Notes under the pieces: model-generated
Databases searched by the model: none
What the model was told of the DNA's origin: nothing
What the model saw: only the letters and a program-made list of their open reading frames with translations
In this document: one piece after another, positions 1 to 51,000 of the stretch
Layout of the letters: every line of letters starts with the position of its first letter
Numbering within the stretch: the stretch's first letter is position 1
Source: Pagrus major
Taxonomy: Eukaryota; Chordata; Actinopteri; Spariformes; Sparidae
Assembly: GCF_040436345.1 (NCBI RefSeq)
Contig: NC_133234.1
Coordinates: 12,523,446 to 12,587,445 of the forward strand
Length of the DNA: 64,000 nucleotides
Direction: 5' to 3'
Position numbers and translations under genes: made by a program

Positions 1-14513
<14,513 letters not shown>

Positions 14514-15259
14514 TGCTAGCGAATGTCGCAAATGGAAAGATCCACCTGTTGATGTCTGAGTCTTGTTGCAACTTGTTTAAACTCCTGCAGCTAACCTAGT
14601 GTACATTTAGAGATGTTAGCTAGCAAACACGCAGCTAAATGAGCAGGAAAGCTCTTTCTCCGTTTCCCAGCGGTCAACGCAATAAAACCTTTTGTTTCAC
14701 ATCATCATGAGATGCGAGGGCTCCTCCAGTTCTCCTGGATTCAAAGTAAGTAACACTTTATTCCTGCTATGACGCCAAGCGCTCACAGTTGCAGTTATGT
14801 CCTTCCCGCTCCAGCCTCCGCCGTTGCCAACGACAGCGCGACGCTCATGACGTCGGTGCGTTGCTTTCCATGGCGCTTCTGGGTAATGAAGTTCATAGAA
14901 CAAAAGGAGTACTAAAAGAGAAACTGAAGCTTTTGGGAATCAAAAAGGCTATAAATTACCACACAAAGTATGTTGTAAGAAGACACTGCATATGGGTGTG
15001 GTGTAGATTAACTTCAACCTTTTCACGTCCTGTTGAATGTGCCATTTTTGTTTACCACCCTACTGTTAATGATGCCAATCTCTTACAGGAGGAGATCACC
15101 CCACACACTTATTTCTTAGAAAATGACAATATAAACAAATATCCTTTCACTTATTCACAATTTTATATCATACATAGTAACAATTACTTATTCACAATTT
15201 ACATATTCACAACAAACCACATAATCTTAAAAAAAATCACAGTGAATGCAAGAATGTAT
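14514..15259. promoter_or_regulatory. wdr90 upstream/5' UTR region and receptor 3' flank
   Basis: This 0.75 kb separates the wdr90 start codon from the end of the receptor extension. The stretch 14640-14870 is more GC-rich and contains several CpGs (for example gacagcgcgacgctcatgac), which fits a wdr90 promoter. The rest is AT-rich and probably receptor 3' UTR. No TATA box or exact start site can be assigned. Confidence 0.4.
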
Positions 15260-15592
15260 TCAGTCTGAATCTATATTTACAACATTTGGGAGTGACTCTA
15301 CAGGGTCTTGAAGATGAATGATGAAGGACACTTGCATTGCTACAGATGATTGTCCGACGCCATCTTGATCTCCACACTGCAGGTTGTTGTCTCTATTTAC
15401 CACTGATGGACAGTGCAGCAAAGAATCCTCAGGCTGTGGTGAAGTCGGCTGAACTTGACGTCTAAAAATCAGTGAACTGTCAGGAGTAGGCGAACCATCT
15501 GGCATTGCCCTTGCCATTGTGCCAGAGGATCTGTTGCGCTCTGGTGCCGTGGTGATGGAGAAAGTGTCTACTCGAGAATCGAGCATGCCTAG
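15260..15592 (-). CDS. In-frame 110-codon C-terminal extension after the receptor TGA (candidate readthrough)
   Basis: Directly after the receptor's TGA the same frame stays open for 110 codons to a second TGA at 15260-15262. There is no splice junction between them. The predicted segment is Ser/Thr/Pro-rich (VDTFSITTAPERNRSSGT, GSPTPDSS) and ends near DPVESLPNVVNIDSD. That composition fits the phosphorylatable cytoplasmic tail of class B GPCRs, whose relatives usually carry longer tails than the 435-residue form. Full readthrough would give 546 residues. Alternatives are a nonsense mutation in this allele, an assembly error, or 3' UTR open by chance. Confidence 0.55.
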   Translation of the reverse strand, partial: LGMLDSRVDTFSITTAPERNRSSGTMARAMPDGSPTPDSSLIFRRQVQPTSPQPEDSLLHCPSVVNRDNNLQCGDQDGVGQSSVAMQVSFIIHLQDPVESLPNVVNIDSD

Positions 15593-15595
15593 TCA
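15589..15595 (-). promoter_or_regulatory. Stop codon in UGA CUAG readthrough context
   Basis: The minus strand reads CAG TGA CTA GGC. UGA followed by CUAG is the established efficient readthrough motif of mammalian OPRK1, OPRL1, AQP4 and MAPK10. Here it sits at the end of a GPCR frame and is followed by a long open frame. Confidence 0.6.
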
Positions 15596-18500
15596 CTGTC
15601 CACAGCATGCAATCTCAGCCTCTATCCTCCAGCTACGTAACTTCCTCTTGAGCTCTGTCCTCACCTGCACCCAGAGTGGAAATGAGCCATTCCAGAGTTA
15701 ATGTGCCATTTTGTTACTTTCTCCAGTGTGATTGAATGGAAACTGGAAAAGTCATTCATCGTGGTATTGATCAAATTATCATTGTTGTGATTGGTACAAA
15801 TGGCCAATCAATACCTTCTGTGTAGAGAAAAAATATGAAAGGAGATTATGAGATGAAACAACAAACCTCTTTATTGGCGTAGCAGTAGAGCACCGCCACC
15901 AGAAGGCCCTGCAAATATAAAGAAAAGCCCAGTTAATTTAAGGAATGTATATGATATCTGTCATACAGGAACACATTAGATAATTTTTAGACGGTTAAAT
16001 TATCTTATAATGTCAGACTCTCTCTTGAAACCTACCTGAAATGAATTGAGAAAAAGGGTGAAGAAGACCTTAATGTAGCGGAGAATGCCTGTTGTCTGCT
16101 CATCTGTAGCAAAAATGAATATGATCTCGTGAATCCCAAACAAAGGGACAAGGGTAAGGGTTGCCTTGGCAAGCCTACGAGGGCAAAGCAGACAGCAGAG
16201 CAATTAGTCACATAAGTATTAATTTATCTGTCTATGTCTTTGTTCCCTCTCCCACAAAAAAAATTATCAATGCTTCTCTTTGAAAAACAGAGTCATGGCC
16301 ATAGCTTGGGAAAAAAAATAGATGAGTCAAATAAATCTAATTCATCATCATCACTGAGAATACCCTGAGACAACTTGCCGAAGTTTGTAATCCGGGTATT
16401 CACTCTGGTTGTTGGCTCGTAATTTGGAAAGAATGACCTTCAAGATCTTCATGAAAATTAGAAAGTTGATCTGTTGATCAGAAGAAAAAAATAGATATAG
16501 CTAGATATAAAGTATTATGTCATAAATTATACAGCGGAGTCCAATGACTGTAACATATAACTGCAATCACTATTTGCATGCTTACAAGTGAAGCAAAAAG
16601 AATTGGGAAACGAATGATCCACCAGTAGTTCATGTTCTCATTGAAGGCCCAACACCTGCAAGGACAAGGCTCGTGTTACTTTTTCTCCCCTGTCCAATCT
16701 GGATCAGTTGGGTCACGGGGTCGACACATAAAGTGATCACACACGTGCTCACACTTACTCTTTGTTTTCTTTATATAGCTTCATCACTGCCCAGGGAACC
16801 ACAAAGAGAAGTGGCGTTCCTATGGAAAAACAGTTAAAAATGCTGTTTCCATGGTATCAGCTGTAATTACGTGCACTTGAGAGGGTCGGCAGTATGGGAG
16901 GAAGAAGCGTCTACTGTTGCAATGTGTCTTCATATGTATGTACTGTTTCTCTATAGTGAGATGGTTTTTGATGTAATGAGAGATTCTGATCATCTCCTTC
17001 AAATTTAGGTTGAGTCCCTGAAACAGAGATGAAACTTACCCCAGCCAAGACAGATGTAGGGTAAATATTTGGTGCTGTCGATGAACACCGAGGCAATGAG
17101 CACAGAGTACAAATAAATTGCCTCTCCAAAGAACCAATAATGATTGGCCAGGACACAGTACTGCATCATCACCTGTGCTATCCTGCAGCCAATAGCAGCC
17201 TAGAGGCAGTGGTGATACAAATAAAACATGTTTAAGGCTGATGTTTAAACTTGCAAGTATCAGAATTTCTTTCTTAATTTGTCATTTTTAGCTGTGATTT
17301 TCAACGCATGGACAATTTTAAACCATCATGACCTACCTGATGACTGAGCATCTCTTTCACGTCAGTCTGTTTCATGATCTCTCTTCCCCAGTGGCGTTCC
17401 AGCATGGTGTCCTTAATGATGACAGATACAGCTCGGAGGATGAGCGACAGGAAGAGGTTTGCATGAATGTAGTTCCTGGTGCAATGCAGCTTCCTGTCAG
17501 GTAACATGAAGGTACTTAAAATTTGAATTTTGCGTATCAAGGCTTTAAAGGGTAACTCCACCTGTTTTACACATTAAAGTGTGTTTACTGGTCTTGGGGA
17601 GTACTGCTCCATATATGAAAAAAAGTATTATAAAACCTTTTATGTCTCCAGAGGACATCTGATAACGTACATAAAGCTGCCTCCAGTGATGTCACTCAGT
17701 GACAGAGTTGCATTGTGGGTAATGTAGGCACCATGTTTTGGAAAGGAGCAGGAATACTAGGAAAAAAATGGCGATATCTCTGGTTCTTCTGTATCCATTT
17801 TGGTGATTTGTTATTAAACTATCCATAATGATATCCAGTAGTGTTTTAGGAGTGCAATGTGTTACCCACAATGCAACTTAGCCACTGATTGACATCTGTG
17901 AGGTAACTGTGGGGTATCTGATTTATATCTAGATTTAACGTTACACTGTGAAATCCAATCTAATAGACAGCTTACCTAAAACTCAGAAGAATGATGAGAG
18001 CAGTTATGAGGGTGAAGAGGGACAAGGAGTAGCCGACAGTGTACAACATCCTGAAGCTCACCATCAGTTGTTTGAACCACAGCTGTAAAGAGACAACATA
18101 GACAAGAGAGAGACAAGAGACAACGAGAGACACATAAGATATGTGAGTTTCATGGAAGATGTGACTGTTGTATGGAAAACATGTCACGGAAAAAGAGGGA
18201 GAGGCTAGAGTTGAAAGCCAATAACCTATTAGACTTCTTGGTTGTAAACACACACAATCTTGCAGACAGGAGACGTTGAAGTCTAGCCATTTTTGGATGT
18301 CAAATAACGATCAAGCCAAGTGCTGGTAATTCATGTTATTTTACCCTACAGAGCATCTCTCCATCAAACCCTCATGGTTTACTTCAACTATTTTGATATT
18401 TTTAGCATATTTTCTTTTCCTTTTTTTTTTCACCTTGAAAGTGTTCTTTGCTTTCAAAGTATTGGTCTCTTACGATAGATAAATACCTCTATTGGCATTC

Positions 18501-19899
18501 AAACTCATCTCAGTACCTCACCTACTTCAGAGGTTTTTCTTTTCCATTTCGTGTTTACATGATGACCTTGGTCTGACAAGAAACAACCCCAGTTTCATCA
18601 GTGCAGTGTAGGCTACACAAAAGAAACTTTCTTCCTCAGTAGAGAATACGTGTCATACAAATGTTTGAGTGACAAGAAGTGCTCACGGTCGAAACAAATT
18701 AAGCCCCGAGCTGGAGACATTTTAGTCGCCCTACCTCCTGAGATGTGACCTCTTTTTCCTCCTCACACTGGGTCAGGTCTCTCCACACCTGCCCGCTGTC
18801 ATCTCTCTCCCAGAGGCCGTCAGAGCCACACCGTCGAAGCACAACACCGTGGGACACTGGAGGAGAAACAGTCATTACCCACTTACTCCTAATTAGGATC
18901 CCAAGGGATTGAAACTAATAGCAACACACAGTGGGCAGAAGACAGGTTGAATGCCTGGACAAGTTATCAGCATCCAACATAAAGGGAAAAGAAACACAAA
19001 GATACCAACAACCTCGGGCACAATGGCCACATACACATGCAAAATAATCTGTATATAATCTACAGAATTTTTTTTACTTAACCATCAAAATGTATCGGTA
19101 TATTTTGCAGATTGTGCAGAAATGGATGGAGCAACTCCCCTAACATCTGCACGATCAGTATCACCACACATCAAAAGCATGCTCAAGAGGAAACTAACAG
19201 GATCACGTTTATATTTCAGCTTACTGTTCTGTCAAAGTTAGACTGACTAAAAGTGTGATTTACCTTTATCATACCAGGGCAGGTAGAAAGGGCATGAAAT
19301 GTTGACCACAGAGCCGGCAGGAGTATCTGGCCAGCAGGCATATCTGTCAAATGTCCTGTTACAGAACAAGCCCGCTAGAAAGGCAACAAATAAGAAAACT
19401 GAAAAGATTCTGTTACTCAACAAAAAAGCCATAGATGATGATTTCTGGCACAAATATAAATGGCATAATTTCAATTTTCTTTCTTCCTGTATTTCCATCT
19501 CTTGCCATTAATCCTTTTACACGACGACAGAGTAATAAATGAATGAAGTTTTCCGTACCTTGAATGAGTGGCTCATTTTCTATCATTTTCACACAGTCTT
19601 CTTTATACTGGACCCACCTCAGATAAGTCTCCTCCAAGACTTTCCCACTGGCCATTTCAATCTGTTAGACGAAGACAAAATATCTTCAGAAACACCTTTC
19701 TTTAATTTTCAAGTTTTCTTAAAAGCTGTTCAGAGAGGCTACTTTAAAAGTCATTTTTGCGTGTCACATTTTTCACTCAAAAAAAAAAAAAAGATATATA
19801 TTATCATTGTACATTATTAAAGCCTACCTTTGGCAGTTCGAGAAACAGCAGGCAGATCAAAGTTATTACATCTTGTGTCCTATTCATCGCTGCAGACAT
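15593..19899 (-). CDS. Glucagon receptor-family class B GPCR (glucagon receptor-like)
   Basis: A class B1 peptide-hormone receptor expected to couple glucagon-like peptides to Gs/cAMP at the plasma membrane (family knowledge). Thirteen phase-consistent exons: 19828-19899, 19559-19661, 19264-19374, 18735-18856, 17976-18082, 17337-17493, 17040-17199, 16759-16819, 16586-16655, 16379-16470, 16036-16174, 15867-15908, 15593-15664. They encode 435 residues to the first stop. A signal peptide covers 1 to about 24. The hormone-binding domain has six cysteines (47, 63, 72, 86, 105, 126), the [15 protein letters not shown] signature and NxS/T sites at N64 and N83. Seven membrane segments run from about 148 to 408, with [37 protein letters not shown] and [14 protein letters not shown]. 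The ectodomain is closest to GCGR. The FGEAIYLY variant in TM3 and linkage to wdr90/nlrc3 suggest the receptor lineage reported in non-mammals for glucagon-like peptide GCGL (gcrpr), but I cannot prove this. A second in-frame Met lies at residue 5. The tail ends IACCGQ at a TGA discussed separately. Confidence 0.92.
16373..16378 (-). other. GC-AG splice donor (GCAAGT) in the receptor
   Basis: The exon 16379-16470 ends AAACTTCG followed by GCAAGT. Joining here to 16174 gives [13 protein letters not shown], the canonical class B intracellular-loop/TM6 sequence. Using the next GT (GGGTATTC, before 16364) would insert five extra residues, QVVSG, into this invariant motif, so the GC donor is preferred. 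Confidence 0.7.
17546..17930. repeat. Interspersed repeat in receptor intron with 15-bp inverted repeat
   Basis: The segment starts aaagggtaactccacctg, which resembles common fish MITE ends. It contains ttgcattgtgggtaa at 17708-17722 and its perfect reverse complement at 17862-17876. I could not define both termini. It lies between the exons ending at 17493 and starting at 17976. Confidence 0.4.
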
Positions 19900-20912
19900 G
19901 TTCTTTCTGATCCAAAAAGACTGAGAGGAGGAAGAACAGAATGGTTTTGACTACGTCTTATTTGTTAAGCTCAGCAAGCTCAGCAGCTGGTGGAATACTG
20001 TACCACCAGCTGCACCTCTATCACAAGAAGATGGAGCAAGTGGGTGCCTGTTGCCTTGCAATAAAACATATGAATTATCATCAATTTTTAGCACAATTAC
20101 GTTTCCTTTCACAAGCACTGAACTTTTGAACCCATGCCAAAATGTATGCACCAAAGGGAATATTCTGCCACTTGGGCCTATATCTAGACAAAATAAGCCC
20201 ATATGTAGATCAACTCTGAGGACTATTTAATATTACTGTTTAATTAAACTATTCAAATGTAAATTATATCAAAATTTTGAATAAAACATGCACAAATGGG
20301 GGAATCTGGAGGGGCAGAATATATCCTTTGGTGCATAAATCCACTGGAGTATACAGATGTATTTCACTCAGAAAAAAACATAAAATCTTGATTGAAGTAG
20401 GCTATTTCTACCTGTTTGGTTTTCTGAGAAAAAGAGGATTTAACAGTAATTCCAGGGGTTCTTGGTGTATCCCGCCTTCCCTCCTCCATTTTGACTCTTT
20501 GGGACGTGGTAGCATGAAAGGGTTAAACTACGAGACATTTTCTAGATGTGTCAGAATTAGATAAATTAAGTCACTGAAGCAAAAGGCTTCAGCTGGCTTT
20601 TGTAAAAGTTCTCTAATAGTATGTAACTTGAAAAGCCTGACCTTATGTTGTATTTGGAAAAAGGAAGATATTTAAAATAAAATTAAAGGGGTTTGATTTT
20701 TTTTTTATTTTTAGTACTAACCTGTTTGAATATACTTTATTTTTGTCATATTTTGTCATATACACTTTTCCAGCATACATGCACCATGCTCCAAACTGGC
20801 TTAGTATGGATGGAGACACCAGCACTGCCTCATTTGTCTTCAAAGACAACCTTTCACCAACAGAATAATATCAAGGAGTCTGTGATACACTCTGAAACTA
20901 AATGAGGCTTCT

Positions 20913-20928
20913 ACCATCTATCTATCTG

Positions 20929-20996
<68 letters not shown>
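20913..20996. repeat. (TCTA)n microsatellite
   Basis: About 80 bp of tandem tcta units with one gtc interruption near 20928. It is intergenic and probably length-polymorphic. Confidence 0.95.
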
Positions 20997-22902
20997 ACCA
21001 TCATAATTATTGCCTGAAGATTTGGCTTCTACAGTAGTCAGTCTGCTAATGGCTCTGACATGTGCTTAATCATCAGTGGACGAGGTCTGGTGGGGGGTCT
21101 TGCTAGATCCTTTCAACCCTGAAACCCACTTAGACTATGAGTGATGTAGGATTTTGAAGTCAATGATTAAGAAAAAGAGAACTATTACTCTTTGAAACTG
21201 GAATGGAATAGATGAAAGAAATGTAGCCCATGTGTTACATTAATGATTGCTGTTTTAGTGGACCCTCATTTTAACAGGCATTTCCTCATGTGACCTAATT
21301 CCTCCTGCAGCAGCTTTCTGAAAGGCACAGACAATGGTACAGTATACCGCAATGTTGTCCGAAATGTTGCTTTTGATTTGCCCCACTTGTCAAAAAATGT
21401 GATATTATATTGACATGTTTTTAGATTAGCAGTGTGGTCTATAACAGTGATGTGTCCCTGGATAAAACCCTGCTACTGTATAGTGGAACCACATTTATTT
21501 GCAAAACAAGCTCAGGGGGTCCGCTGTCCCCACCATCTGTGACGGTGCCACCTCAGGCTCAGCGCAGCCTTCGTCAGTGTACCAACAGACTGCCAAAACA
21601 CAGATTCGATTTGTCTCCTGGTAGAAGGCATTTGACAGTCATTGCCTGTGGCAGCTCGAGGAATGAAACCATATCGGGCTTGGTTTCTTGTAAGGCCAGG
21701 AGCTGTCCTATGTGGAGCTCTCCCCTACTCTATAATGGCAGGAAACATAATGTGAGAACTCGATTACCATCAATATGTAATTATCAATAAATTTTGCATT
21801 ATTTTCTTTTTTCTTTATTTTCTTTCTATTTCTGTGATTTGGCCTGTTTTATCGCTTTTATTCCTTTTATTTGTCATTACTCACTCACTGAGTTTTTGTG
21901 TTTTTACATTTTCTGTTCTGCTTTCTTGATTTGACTCACTGGTTGAATAATTGCTGTAAATTCCCATATATTTGACTCATAAGGTTGTTTGCGGTGCTCC
22001 TGTGTGGCTTGCGTAGCCTGCCTTGTCGTGATTAACAGGAAGTGGAATTTTAAAAAGTTTTCTGTTGTGTGACTAAACAAGCAGACGGGTAGTTTCACTG
22101 TCATTGCTGGTGATGCCAAGCTGGCTCAAGCAGTGTCATGTCATCCATATTATGTGGTTATAATAAGAAGAAAACTAAGACAAAGATGAAAGAAGACTAA
22201 AGATAGCGACTACATCATCTTTTGTAGATTTTTAAATTATTATTATTTTTTTGTATATACTAGCAAAATGTGATCTAATTATTTATAGTCTAGATTAATA
22301 AATTAATTTTTAACCAAATCTATCCACGCCTAATTTTATTGTAATTAGTTAGTGTATCACTTAGTGAAACGCTTTATTAATCTTTTTTTCCGTGACACTT
22401 TTGGTCCTCCATACCATAGCAGGATTACATGAACCAAACCTGGCTCCTGAGCAATTATTTGACGCACTTTTACAGTTACAGGCTTCTTTCAGTACTTCAA
22501 AACAGTTGCATTGAAAAATAGGCATTGCATCCTCCACATTCTGGAAAAAGTTGCCTATAAAGACAGATTTTATTTATTATATGTTGCATTTTTTTTGTCG
22601 AAGTGCAATGGCGATTTAAAAAAACCTATACAAAAAATAAAGATGATTCTTTTTAATGGCTATCATAAGAGGAAAAAAAAACATTGTGCATGCACGAAAG
22701 CTATCTCTAATGTTAATTAAGTTTGTGTTTTTACTTACATAATGTCAACGCTCTCACATTTCCCATGAGATGTATGATGCGTTTTGGATAAATACACCCC
22801 TTCAATTTCCCTTTTGGGACATCTTCCGGATAAAACAGTTGCAGTAGTCTACTACCATGAACAAACAAAAGACAACAACAGAAAAACAACAGCACTTACA
22901 GA

Positions 22903-29797: not shown

Positions 29798-30118
29798 TTA
29801 AAGGGATAGTTCGGATTTTTTGACATGAAATTGTATGACATCCTCACCATCAGTGTCGTGCATCAGCAGTGACTTTTCCCCCACTGCGTCCTGTGAGCCG
29901 AGGTCTGTCCCGCTGTTGTTGCTGAAGAAAGTAGTTACGGCTAGTTTGCGGGGTCACGAAGATAAAGCGTTTTGCTTCAAAAAACAATATCCGTTCAAAA
30001 GAGTAAAACATTTGCATCACAAAATCGTTTACGACAAAAAAGTCAGACCTCACGATCACCTGGCACTATTTCCCCTCCCTTCGTATCACTGCGCGCTTCC
30101 ACCTGTTGACACACCACA

Positions 30119-30290
30119 GAGCTTTTACCACAGAGCCAAAGGGATATCTTTATGAACCCGAATACACAGACACCGAGCTTCGTCAAATGAAGTTAGAACG
30201 GGCAGAGAGAGAGGAGAGAGACAGAGAAGCGGTCCAAGTTGCTGACAATAATAATAACAGTCATCATATAAAAAGGCACCATCTTTAGCT
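30119..30290 (+). pseudogene. Second coding remnant of the THAP element, opposite strand
   Basis: On the plus strand, just inside the left arm, a frame reads GYLYEPEYTDTELRQMKLER followed by a Glu/Arg-rich stretch. It looks like the charged start of a second transposon-encoded protein converging on the THAP frame. It is cut short by the internal deletion. The function is unknown. Confidence 0.4.
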
Positions 30291-30312
30291 TGTAGATAGT
30301 TGTTCTTACCTG

Positions 30313-30545
30313 GGGTCGTGGCACAGCAGCGCTCTTCAAAACATGTTTCTTCCTCTTTCCTGGGCGTGTAGGAACATAATCGTCCTTGCTGAAGTGTGCA
30401 CTACACACACAAAGCTTTTTCACCCTTGGCAGTCTCGCTTCAATGTTCAAGCCTATGGCAAGAAGCCAAAGTTGCCTAATAGCAATGTCCGTGACAGGAA
30501 AGCGGTGAAATATATACACCGTGAAACAGTTTAAACAGCTGACGG
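30313..30545 (-). pseudogene. THAP-domain transposase exon fragment
   Basis: The minus strand encodes FHRFPVTDIAIRQLW, then KKLCVCSAHFSKDDY and KSAAVPRPQ. This is the core of a THAP zinc-finger DNA-binding domain: the FHRFP start, the invariant Trp, the C-x2-H-F end and an AVP-like tail. A strong donor (CCCCAG|GTAAGA) follows, so it was probably an exon of a spliced transposase gene. The catalytic region is absent. Confidence 0.75.
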
Positions 30546-30871
30546 AGCGGTGCGGTGTGTCAACAGGCGGAAGCGCGCAGTGATACGAAGGGAGGGGAAA
30601 TAGTGCCAGGTGATCGTGAGGTCTGACTTTTTTGTCGTAAACGATTTTGTGATGCAAATGTTTTACTCTTTTGAACGGATATTGTTTTTTGAAGCAAAAC
30701 GCTTTATCTTCGTGACCCCGCAAACTAGCTGTAACTACTTTCTTCAGCAACAACAGCGGGACAGACCTCGGCTCACAGGATGCAGTGGGGGAAAAGTCAC
30801 TGCTGATGCACGACACTGATGGTGAGGATGTCATACAACTTCATGTCAAAAAATCCGAACTATCCCTTTAA

Positions 30872-45000: not shown

Positions 45001-48000
45001 AGAGAATAACTGGTTACTCTACATCATCAGCATGAACAAACACATATACTAAGCAAAGGACATTGAACAAACATAAATAAAAAGCAGAAAAAACTCACTT
45101 CAGAGACACCAGTTTGCGGTTGCACTGCAGTACCTCTGCAAGGGCCTGAGCACCTTCCTCCTCAATGGCGTTGTTCTGGAAGCTGATGAGTGGTTAGGGA
45201 AAATGAGCAATTACACCAACTAAGGGTCGCACTGGCATATTTCAGGATAATTGTGTGGTTAAACTAAAATCTATGGCAATATCACCCACTTAATTGATAT
45301 GAGGACTTGGTTCATTTTCAGAGCCTCTGCCAGGAACTTCGCACCTTTAGAGCCGATGTTGTTGTTCCGGAGACTAAATTATAAAATGGTGGTTAGGTTA
45401 CATACAGCAATGTACAGCAATGTCTACAACAAGAGAAAACCTGTGTAGCAATATACAGAATATGCTTGTGAAATTAGATGAGCACAAATTAAATAAAACT
45501 TCACAGACTAGAAAGTATTCATGTTATAGAAATCAGCGTGAAAATTTTCCCTGATTTATGTTTAAGAATTGTTTACCAAAACATTTCTAACATATCTGAT
45601 ATAGAATTGGCAATATTATTCACAGGTATTGTGAATATTGTGGATAATCATCGAATTATATATGTTTTAATGTGCTGCATTACAAAAAACTGCTGTTACT
45701 TCTCATTCCAGATAAAAACATTTGAAAATAATGACCTTCTTGACCGTCGTTTTACCTTGGTCTTTTGTTTTGTGGAACATTGCAGAATTTTTTTAGACAA
45801 AGCACCAACTTAAGTTTAGTGCTGTAGAAGCACACAACTTTCCTGTTATGAACTCAAAGAGTTACGGCCATTGCACGATCTGATATACACTTGACCCATT
45901 CAGCTAAGACTTTTGTAAATTTAAATGATAACCCTGGAGTAAAATGAATCATGATGTTTTGGTACAACACCAACACAGTGATATCACATTGATCTATGGC
46001 CTGTGCAATCAGTCAATGGCAACAAACAGATCTCACTTGAGAGAGGTTAGCGTCCGGTTCACCAAGAGGGCTCGACTCAGGGCTTTGGCACCTTTGTTGC
46101 TGATGGAATTCTCTGCCAAACTGAGGAGGTTAATAAAAGATAATACAATCATATGGTGCAAAGTAGTAATGGTAATTACATTCATCATCATCACTGCACC
46201 AATCCTACAAAGGATTGGACTCACAATCAAGAGTCTCTTACACCCTTGTAATAATCAAGACCGACACTAACTCGTAATTATGTAAGTTTCACCATTTATG
46301 TGAGCAATCAGGCATGTCACTTGATACTGTGGTTCAAAGATATTGGACTGCGAAATGTTCTTCATATGATGAATTGCCCGAGGAGTTGAAATTAAGTGTA
46401 TTCTGACCTTATCTTCTGGATATGGCAGTCTTTGGCACTCAGCAGGCTTCCCAGCAATTCCATGACATCGTCTTTGAAGTGATTATTCTCTAACCTGTGG
46501 AGTACATCAATTTAAAGTTTCACTCTTCAATCTGTCTTTTGAGTTTCAGTGTATTGGGAGAAAGTGCTTTGGGTAGCTGACCTGAGATGGCTGCAGTACA
46601 ACAGCTGTGGGAGCAAACATTTCACTGTCGTGTAGTTCAGAGAGCCTGTTAGGTTGGTCTGTTCACTGCATTCTGGAGACACATGCAGCAAGTAGCCCAG
46701 CACGACACAGTGAGCCCGTGTCAGCTTCCCTGCTAGGCTACCAAGCTGTAAATCTTCCTCTACACTCCGCAACAGCTCTGTGTGTTGAACCTCCTGTAAA
46801 CAATAAGCCAGGTTGACTGCACGCAGGGACACAACAGCACCCCCACTGACCAGGAGACCTTGTAAGAACCCTGCTGCCCATGCCTTCAGATTGCCATCTT
46901 CTTTGCCGAGGGCCAGGATTCCAGCAAGAGGTTTCAGTGCCACTGAGGACAGCAGGCCTGCCAGGAAGCGCACAAACACATCCAAGTGACCATCTTCAGC
47001 TTGTTGCGAGTGCTGGAAGGCACTTTTAAAGTGATTCTGGAAACCAATCTTGGGCCAAGACATTGTGCTCTCTGAGAATAAGTCGAAGATGGCCCGCTTG
47101 GATGAAACATGGTAGAAAGTAGCTGCAAGAAACTCCTGGAGAGTCAAATGAGTGAACCGGTATGTTGTGGAAATTGGTGACTCCTCCCGAACAAGAACTC
47201 CAGCACCAAGACTGCACTGAGTTAACAGGAGATCTATCCCATAGGCCTTTAGGTCCTGCTCACTGAAGGTGTACTTGTGTTTGAGGAGCCCATAAAACGC
47301 CAGTCGTCCAAGATTCCCCAGCAGTTTACGATTGGTCCCATGGAGCTGCTCCATTTTTACAGGCTCCCTGCCTCTTGGTTCACCTACTTCTGCCTTCATG
47401 GAACAAAAGTGAGCATACAGCTCAGTGCAAGTCCTTGGAAGGCTCTCTTGTGTTCCACTCTGCATGATGTACATCAGGGTATCAGCTACTATCCAGCAAA
47501 TGCACGGTATGTAGCACATCACCATTAGGATATTGTTGGACTCCAAGTGTGCCCATATTTTACTGGCAAAATCTCTCTCCGAGAAGTGGTGGTTTAGGAA
47601 GAGCTGGATGTCCTTCGGGCTGAATCCTGGGATCTCAGTCACTCTGTCAACCAATCCTCCAGGGATGAGTGAGGCCACTCCTGGCCTGGCAGTCACCCAC
47701 ACTGCTACATCAGGGAGCAGATTCCCCCGGATGATGTTAGTAACCAGGTCATCAATTGACACTTCTTTCTTCAGGTCATTGCATGGAGCTGCATCGGAGA
47801 AGTTTAAAGTGCAGCGGAATTCATCCAAACCGTCAAGTATGAGCAGTGTGCGACAGGAGCCGTTCAGGACCAGACTGGGGTCTGTTAAATGAGGAAAAGC
47901 CATCTTCACCAGCCTCTCTGCAGAGAGTTTCTCCAGCGAGTTCAGCTCAGAAAAAGTGAAAGGCAAGACGAAGCTCACATCTGCACAGATTGCCCCCTGG

Positions 48001-51000
48001 CTCCACTGTCTGATGAAGTGTCGGACCCAGGTTGTCTTGCCGATACCAGCCACCCCGACTGTGAGGGAGACCCTGGGAGGTAAACTGACCCGGGTCAGGG
48101 GCTCCAAGAGTTTGGGCAGCCCCAGCTGTCTGAGATGATTTCTTTTCCTTCCTCGAGTCACCCCCACTTGCATTAAGTCGTGTTCCTTTTGCTGGAGGTC
48201 GGAAAGTCCATCGACCATAAGTAAGGTTCTGGAGGAGATGTTCAGTTTCGGGCAGCTGACTGAATCTCTGTCTCTGTACTGCTCATATCGACGCAACACC
48301 ACTTCTTTGTGCTCCTTCACCATGGATTCTGCAGAAAAGAGCATGCTATTTTCAGTAATACGGAAATGATCAAGTTTGTTATTTTTTGATTAGAACTTCA
48401 AGGAGGAAATTGATTGCATTTATACGTGCGCTTTTATCTCAAGAGTGGTGCCAAGTGCCCTCCAGTGTGTTTTGTTTACATGCACACATTCAAACACTGT
48501 GTATGACACTGTGCAGCTCAAGAGGAGCAGTTTGGTGCTCAATGTCTTGGTCAATGACATAGTTGACATGCTGTTCAGAGGATTTAGGAATCAACTAGCA
48601 TCCTGGCTATTACTGCATGACCTGCTCTACCACCAAAGCTACCAGTTGCTTTAACTATAAGAACTGAAAGCAATTTCTTCTTTACCTTTTTAAAAATCAC
48701 CAACACAGAGAGCAAATCCAATTTGTAGCCCCTTACCATGGTTTATGATGAGATGGGCCACCTGAGAATCTGAGCTCTCTATGAAGCCCCGGAGGACATC
48801 GGACCCTTGAGTGTCCTTGCCAGTGACAATAGTTGTGAGCATGTTAACCTGGTCCTGCAGCCTGCCCGCTTCCTTGATCTTGATCTCCTCAGCTGAGCTC
48901 AGCACATCCACCTTTCTCAGGTGGTTTAACAACCCCTCCAGGAAGGAGGTTGTGATGAAGCGCCGTAGCTGGTCTTGATGCTTTTGGATCCAGCCAACCT
49001 CTGAAACAAGATAGAAAGAGAAAAGAAAAGAAGAAAGAAGAATGATGAATGAGATTATCAAGCGATAATTAACAAAGGCAATTTCTTGAGCTAGAACATC
49101 CATTTTTGATGAACAGAAGGAAAGCATGGTACTGTACAAGGTGGACTGTACAAACTCATCCCTTCATTTTTGTCTTTTTGTCAGACTTCATTGCACAGAG
49201 TACTGAAAAAAGCATTCGTCAGTCACTCAAAATTATAAACTCATGCCATTTTAATTAAGGACAGAGGCCAGTCATTCTCATTAAGTCCACCACAGGATAA
49301 CTGTTTCTGCAATAAAATTTCACGAGAGTTCATGCTGCGTCATTGCTTCACATAACCATGACATGACATTCAAAGAAAATTGTCTGATTTACATACTGCA
49401 TGTTGATAGATATTGTCTTTGTGTGATAGTTGTTATTTTGTTTTTCTTCTGTTGGGTAAATCAAATTGCACAATACCTCGTGTTCTGAGAAACAGTCTGT
49501 TCTCCTTTTTAATTTCCTCCCCTGATATTTACAATGAATTTCATTAGGTCATGTTAATCCCCTTCATTTGATGGCTTGTTCTGTAAAACATTTCAATTGA
49601 TCATCCATCTTATAAACACACATACAAATATCCTCACCCTATTCCAAACCCTCTCTCTTGCTTCTAACTGTGATAGCAGCCTGTCACTATGGATGGCAAT
49701 TTTGGTCTGTCTGTTACGTGATCGTTCCACCACTTTGGCCCTGACTGAAATATATCAACAACTATTGGATGCAATGTCATTTTGTGTTTGTGATCCCGTC
49801 AGGATGATAACTTTGGTGCCCACTGATTATGCACATTAGCATTTCTCCTGCTAGCCCCACCTACCGGTTCCCGCTTGATCCATAGATGCCAGATATTTAA
49901 ATACTTTTTTTTCAGTTGGAGGAAAGATTTCCAAAAATAAAACCTCCATGGATCCAAAATTCATAATAGAAAATAGTCATAAATGACCTTGTTTGCAGTT
50001 CGGGGTGTCCTTTCAACAGTTTTACAGATGTCTCTTTAATGGTGGTGTAGGGGAAATACTTTTAATACTACATGCTAAGCTGAGAAGGTTGAACATTGAA
50101 AACATTATAACACTATACATCAGTGTGTCAGCATTATTAGTGTGTGCTTGTTATAGTACTTAGCTCAGTACAGCCTCACAGACATGCTAGCATGGCTATA
50201 CACTCATAGTCTTGTTAACCTGTTAAAGTGATTTCCCGTTACCATGCGACAGCCTGAACATGATGCAGTACCAAAGCATTCATTTCTAATTCATCCTCAA
50301 AAAGGATGTAGGGAGGAGAAAATGATACTGCATTCACAATCCCACAACTCAGGAAACACTGGTGTTGTACTCACTCAAAGATACTAGCCACCTTAATATG
50401 CCTGATTTTTTTTTCATCAAGATCCATACATTATTTAATGAGAAATTAACAAATATATTTTGCAATGTTGAAGAAAGTGAGAAAAAATTCCTGGATCCGT
50501 CCCTTTATGCAGATCTGAAAAGTTAATGGAGTCTATTCTTGGCCTGGACCCATCATCCATCCAAGTTTCGTGGAAAACCATTCAGTAGTTTTTGTGTAAA
50601 CCTGATGACAAACCAACCAACCAACAAACAAACAAACGTGTGGAAACATAACCTCCTCGATAATGAAGTAAATACAGAACAAAATCATAACATACTGCAC
50701 AACAGGTAATTAATATATAAACCCACACAAGGACAGCTCAGGATTTTTGCTACGGTCTCTTCTCCAAACTCCAAAAGCCAATTGAATCACTGTTAGAAAC
50801 CTAAATTTAACACACAGGTACAGATCATCAATTCCAGCCTGCTTTAAGCTTTCTGCAGCAATTACTATGGTCAGCAATCATCATCAGTGCTTGTCAAACA
50901 TATGGTGACAACATTACCCAAAAAAAGAAAGTACCCACATCTCTCCTCAGCCTTAATTAACCTCACTTGAGGGTGTAATTACAGTCATTAACATATCAGA

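Follow-up and report, generated by a model that had tools for sequence, protein, structure and literature searches.

The window analysed here, a 64,000-nt stretch of Pagrus major DNA (contig NC_133234.1), carries on its minus strand a gene of 13 coding exons, which were placed by eye and whose frames all join (Table 1). The receptor product matched glucagon receptor structures (chain 6whc_R, E 3.9e-136), and its best match among the listed proteins was the glucagon receptor-like protein of the sparid Acanthopagrus schlegelii (P0001, 412 of 435 residues identical). The Pfam families HRM and 7tm_2 were found in the orthologues P0034 and P0059, on which, rather than on the window receptor, Pfam was run. 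Judged by this hormone-receptor domain, the secretin-type 7TM region and the nearest relatives, the gene is teleost grlr (glucagon receptor-like receptor, also GCRPR), a class B1 receptor of the glucagon family, the family to which an initial annotation made from the letters alone had assigned it. According to the text of Park 2013 (PMC3679108), GCRPR/grlr is known from medaka, fugu, tetraodon and stickleback and from non-mammalian tetrapods, and is absent in zebrafish and mammals; the text of PMC8312260 also uses the names grlr and GCRPR.

Exon 10 is followed by a non-canonical GC donor (GCAAGT, 16378-16373, minus strand), and a long GATA-type microsatellite lies at about 20914-20996, upstream of grlr exon 1. 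Just downstream of grlr, and in tandem with it, is a WDR90-like gene (4975-13090, minus strand) with WDR90/POC16 beta-propeller and CFA20 matches. An NLR-type gene at 46527-49163 on the minus strand comprises two open stretches, one bearing a CARD and the other, of 620 residues, containing NACHT, winged-helix and HD2 domains. An inverted repeat at 29798-30871, with 326-nt arms that are 98% complementary, overlaps a THAP-domain ORF and is perhaps transposon debris.

Table 1. Position of grlr, its exons and the elements of its last exon in the window
Feature	Position	Strand	Remark
grlr (glucagon receptor-like receptor / GCRPR) gene	15260..19899	-	13 coding exons
grlr exons 1-7	19899-19828, 19661-19559, 19374-19264, 18856-18735, 18082-17976, 17493-17337, 17199-17040	-	
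grlr exons 8-13	16819-16759, 16655-16586, 16470-16379, 16174-16036, 15908-15867, 15664-15260	-	GC donor after 16470-16379
Final 23 residues of the short isoform	15596..15664	-	Equal length from exon start in 77/93 usable orthologue models
Stop codon TGA, putatively leaky	15593..15595	-	W here in Antennarius P0034 and P0075
Putative readthrough context CTA GGC	15587..15592	-	Directly after TGA
Conserved C-terminal extension	15263..15592	-	110 codons
Extension residues 10-18 (TFSITTAPE), candidate arrestin phospho-code	15539..15565	-	Conserved; each of two patterns fits 20/23 usable rows
Extension residues 86-110 (MQVSFIIHLQDPVESLPNVVNIDSD)	15263..15337	-	Most conserved block; Merluccius P0059 closes with a similar one
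Second stop codon TGA, end of the putative extended isoform	15260..15262	-	Seven ORFs have W here

Exon 13 contains the sequence CAG TGA CTA GGC at 15598-15587 on the minus strand, and beyond the TGA the frame meets no further stop for 110 codons (15592-15263), both as the initial annotation had described. Its product lengths also hold in the spliced 13-exon model: the receptor has 435 residues and a short tail whose last residues are CCGQ, and the product read through the TGA would have 546.

The position of this stop was compared among orthologues. Searching with the receptor protein gave 2147 hits with E no higher than 1e-20, the best 120 of which were analysed; 27 of them, including Sparus aurata P0027, whose model runs into an intron, were dropped for want of the exon-13 pattern, and 93 were usable. 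The window's stop position was shared by 77 of these 93 models, 71 of the 77 ending on Gln, and among the 77 were birds, lizards, a turtle, the coelacanth and Acanthopagrus schlegelii. Another 12 of the 93 ended no more than three residues away, two salamander models and one lungfish model among them ending one residue later. Tetraodon P0044 (one of the 93) had a different 52-residue end, and two Antennarius models and one Merluccius model (three of the 93) ran on past the stop position. The stop is conserved between species, with Antennarius, the ORF P0121 and perhaps Merluccius as exceptions. The orthologue models indicate that the stop is old and not a private nonsense allele, and its occurrence at one and the same residue in models from fish, birds, reptiles and the coelacanth makes it most simply ancestral. 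The initial annotation had warned that a private allele or an assembly error, recognisable by a sense codon in other individuals or close relatives, would undo its proposal. The stop proved not to be private, whereas sense codons do occur at its place in Antennarius (W) and in P0121 (R), and the latter looks like another stop loss.

The extension was found conserved as a protein. In Antennarius striatus the stop position is occupied by Trp, and the sequence then continues with 71 of 109 residues identical to the window extension, with one single-residue gap; the alignment score was 333, whereas 1000 shuffles reached at most 32, and the receptor core was identical to that of the window at 342 of 434 residues. 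Merluccius P0059 runs on with a glycine-rich middle and a similar C-terminal block, its last 30 residues being identical at 16 of 30 positions (score 83, shuffled maximum 25); its start does not align, and the model may be spliced at the stop. Antennarius belongs to the percomorphs and Merluccius to the gadiforms, so the C-terminal block is probably older than the divergence of the two. With the extension as query, 27 of 408 candidates proved homologous (E 1.9e-51 to 1.3e-11); these came from short contigs, and no extension known to come from a tetrapod was among the search results. The frameshifts between species that had been named as a further ground for abandoning the proposal were seen in none of these 27 homologues, all found as intact ORF calls, a sample in which broken extensions would be missed. 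When Antennarius residues 420-544 served as query, only the two Antennarius models were recovered (2 of 58 candidates); Merluccius was missed, so the reach of this search was short. The depth of the extension, as far as these proteins indicate, covers acanthomorph fish.

A tree and a clustering were made from the 24 rows of at least 95 residues (the window, Antennarius and 22 of the 27 homologues), with Merluccius and the shorter rows left out. These rows formed 23 clusters at 90% identity with a median pairwise identity of 0.55, and P0121 was the second-nearest extension to that of the window. The mean share of the commonest residue was 0.88 in residues 86-110 and 0.61-0.71 elsewhere in the extension. 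Substitutions were modestly more conservative than neutral, with 25 of 29 rows positive and three above z=2, the rows not being independent. The extension is conserved in frame as protein among rows ascertained as ORF calls, and this protein conservation argues against its neutral evolution. No Pfam family was found for the extension, and AlphaFold2 modelled it with low confidence (mean pLDDT 59.5; 74-81 at residues 81-100), with no assignment from DSSP. Its PDB profile matches, to flagellin (E 0.0048) and to a BTB domain (E 0.57), were judged to be chance. Viral contigs were scanned for sequences related to the extension, and of 31 pattern matches none was confirmed as a relative.

Ten of the homologous ORFs extended upstream of the boundary, and nine of the ten carried the receptor exon in frame. 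At the stop position eight of these nine had W and one had R (P0121), and in all nine L followed by A or G stood directly after it, which fits CTA-G. Seven of the eight W rows also had W at the second stop and then ran on, while P0128 ended at the end of the extension. The ORF caller probably used a code in which TGA is W, so the DNA would be TGA at both places. UGA followed by CUAG was seen directly in the window; for the other species we infer both from residues, which are consistent with them. P0124 has an exon 13 identical at 23 of 23 residues to that of Chelmon rostratus P0002, and the annotated P0002 model stops there. P0137 has the extension preceded by residues unlike the CCGQ-stop sequence, and rows P0143-P0147 are similar; this group may represent a spliced exon reaching the extension or a rearranged exon 13. 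P0133 ends differently.

In a frame comparison of eight rows, from which P0121 was left out, exon and extension matched as one in-frame stretch in all eight. Matches outside the exon's frame lay 29-58 bases from the coding stretch, in the upstream intron in two of the eight rows and in the 3' UTR in one; in other rows the matches to the window intron or 3' UTR kept the frame of the exon. Because nucleotide similarity reaches beyond the extension, similarity alone is weaker evidence. Past the second stop, at 15259-15202 on the minus strand, the residues (IHSCIHC...) resemble several of the ORFs, and a further match is in another frame; this stretch appears to be conserved 3' UTR.

The single-sequence statistics were also calculated. 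At the base composition here, 110 open codons have a chance of 0.005, and an open frame at least as long follows 15 of the 2958 TGAs of the window, counted on both strands and in all frames with real genes included. TGACTAG occurs four times in the window on the two strands together. In two single-sequence tests of codon usage, neither of them supportive, the extension scored like non-coding DNA of the window, and its GC3 was 0.40 compared with 0.60 in the receptor exons. The synonymous-codon test gave -0.07 for the extension and -0.15 to +0.23 for six real grlr exons, and the codon-usage tests are weak because these exons score around the value of the extension. In a neutral simulation with substitutions only, the frame stayed open with a chance of 10-19% per lineage at 54-66% identity, a chance that was not multiplied over lineages because the homologues were ascertained as ORFs. 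No significant RNA fold was found near the stop (z -0.77 and -0.84), and a local GCATGC...GCATGC pairing there needs residues that are missing from the other boundary-spanning rows. The case for readthrough from the single sequence is suggestive only, and the orthologue proteins lift it above chance.

The tails were scanned for two arrestin phospho-code patterns and for the acidic dileucine pattern [DE]xxxL[LI]. At extension residues 10-18 the short and the long phospho-code pattern each fitted 20 of 23 usable rows, after 7 of the 30 rows had been excluded as gapped there; the short tail had no match to either pattern. The window extension had 2 and 1 phospho-code matches against a shuffled mean of about 1.1 each, and since these counts are near the shuffled mean, only the conservation of the pattern is telling. 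The acidic dileucine occurred within the last 25 residues of 23 of the 30 rows and not in the window, which has DPVESL, so that the motif cannot be essential. A function of the tail is a hypothesis, with residues 10-18 as a candidate phospho-code.

The explanation that best accounts for these observations, and that we consider very probable, is programmed readthrough of grlr at UGA-CUAG, which was also the interpretation of the initial annotation and which gains support from the shared stop position and the conserved in-frame extension. Most ribosomes would stop at the UGA and release the 435-residue receptor with its short tail. A fraction would read through because CUAG follows, decoding UGA by a near-cognate tRNA and continuing for 110 codons to the 546-residue receptor, and it may be this translation that keeps the extension conserved. 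The long tail would carry motifs missing from the short one, namely phosphorylation/arrestin motifs and, in the majority of the species seen, AP-2-type sorting motifs, and readthrough could thereby set the share of receptor open to desensitisation or internalisation. Whether grlr desensitisation is indeed set by translation termination, with the long tail hard-wired by stop loss in Antennarius, in the P0121 lineage and perhaps in hake, we put at even chances.

The foremost alternative is that splicing skips the TGA and so yields the extension. As many as 42 in-frame GT-AG pairs at least 50 nt apart could remove the stop without creating another, the residues just upstream of the extension in P0137 are unrelated, as a spliced exon might make them, the Merluccius model is perhaps spliced around the stop, and Tetraodon has a different end. 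However, with each of the 40 pairs inspected among the 42, at least the first seven extension residues would be lost, and L followed by A or G stands directly after the stop position in all nine ORFs with the receptor exon. Antennarius reads straight over the stop codon, and among the 93 exon-13 models the extension is present only in Antennarius and Merluccius. We therefore regard splicing as improbable.

Conversion of UGA to UGG (Trp) by A-to-I RNA editing would agree with the Trp found in Antennarius, and GPCR mRNAs are known editing targets. The A of the stop is preceded by G, however, which is a poor ADAR context, the stop lies without a significant fold, and editing leaves the constant Leu followed by Ala or Gly unexplained; we consider it very improbable. 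Equally slight is the chance that the long tail is ancestral in acanthomorphs and that the TGA was gained recently and repeatedly, leaving the extension as a decaying relic. Sense-codon sequences do exist (Antennarius P0034, P0121, perhaps Merluccius), P0121 is close to the window in the tree, and the codon usage of the extension is not receptor-like. A relic would hardly keep the C-terminal block at its high commonest-residue share, though, and the extension is intact in divergent sequences for which TGA is the inferred codon, while the stop is most simply ancestral given its wide occurrence. A separate downstream ORF translated by re-initiation could start at the ATG that the window has at extension residue 3, but of the ten rows reading across (the nine ORFs and Antennarius) eight have V at this residue and two have A, and the residues ahead of the ATG are in frame with the receptor, which makes this reading still less probable. 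Least probable of all is decoding of the in-frame UGA as selenocysteine, since an Rfam scan of 13000-21500 with E up to 1 found no SECIS and the sense-codon sequences have W or R, not Cys.

Programmed readthrough at UGA-CUAG in grlr would, if true, enlarge the small set of vertebrate genes with conserved efficient readthrough by a hormone receptor of class B1 whose extension is unusually long. It would link translation termination to GPCR tail signalling, and species that have lost the stop would serve as natural controls. It would also mean that fish grlr constructs cloned as "full-length" but ending at the annotated stop lack one of the isoforms. The main text of Park 2013 (PMC3679108) contains neither "stop codon" nor "cytoplasmic tail" and mentions no tail isoform. 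No description of readthrough in grlr or the glucagon receptor family was found in searches of the open PMC literature, a scope outside which subscription papers and preprints fall. On the protein comparisons, grlr emerges as a well-supported new UGA-CUAG case and, as far as we are aware, the first among class B1 receptors.

Opioid receptors belong to class A, whereas grlr belongs to class B1. According to the text of Loughran 2014 (PMC4132726), four mammalian genes with UGA-CUAG showed efficient readthrough in reporter assays, at about 31% for OPRL1, 13% for OPRK1, 14% for MAPK10 and 7% for AQP4; the same four genes gave 6-17% in the text of a later paper (PMC5868278). The initial annotation had pointed to UGA CUAG as an established readthrough context and compared the receptor with OPRK1 and OPRL1, and both points stand, with the context seen in the window and the text of Loughran 2014 (PMC4132726) in agreement. 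As described in the text of that paper, OPRL1 and OPRK1 resemble grlr in being GPCRs with UGA followed by CUAG and with a cytoplasmic Ser/Thr extension most conserved at its C-terminal end; OPRL1 also has GC after CUAG, as grlr does, and indels in the middle of its extension. The two opioid extensions have about 28 to 34 residues (PMC4132726), compared with 110 in grlr. Moreover, their conservation spans mammals to bony fish and their readthrough has been measured with reporters, whereas the grlr extension is known from sequences of acanthomorph fish and from the short contigs. VDR shares with grlr both UGA-CUAG and a long extension, in its case of 67 residues (text of PMC5868278). However, VDR is a nuclear receptor whose extension has weak coding evidence, confined to the Old World monkey clade in the text of that paper, whereas the extension of grlr is kept across 23 clusters.
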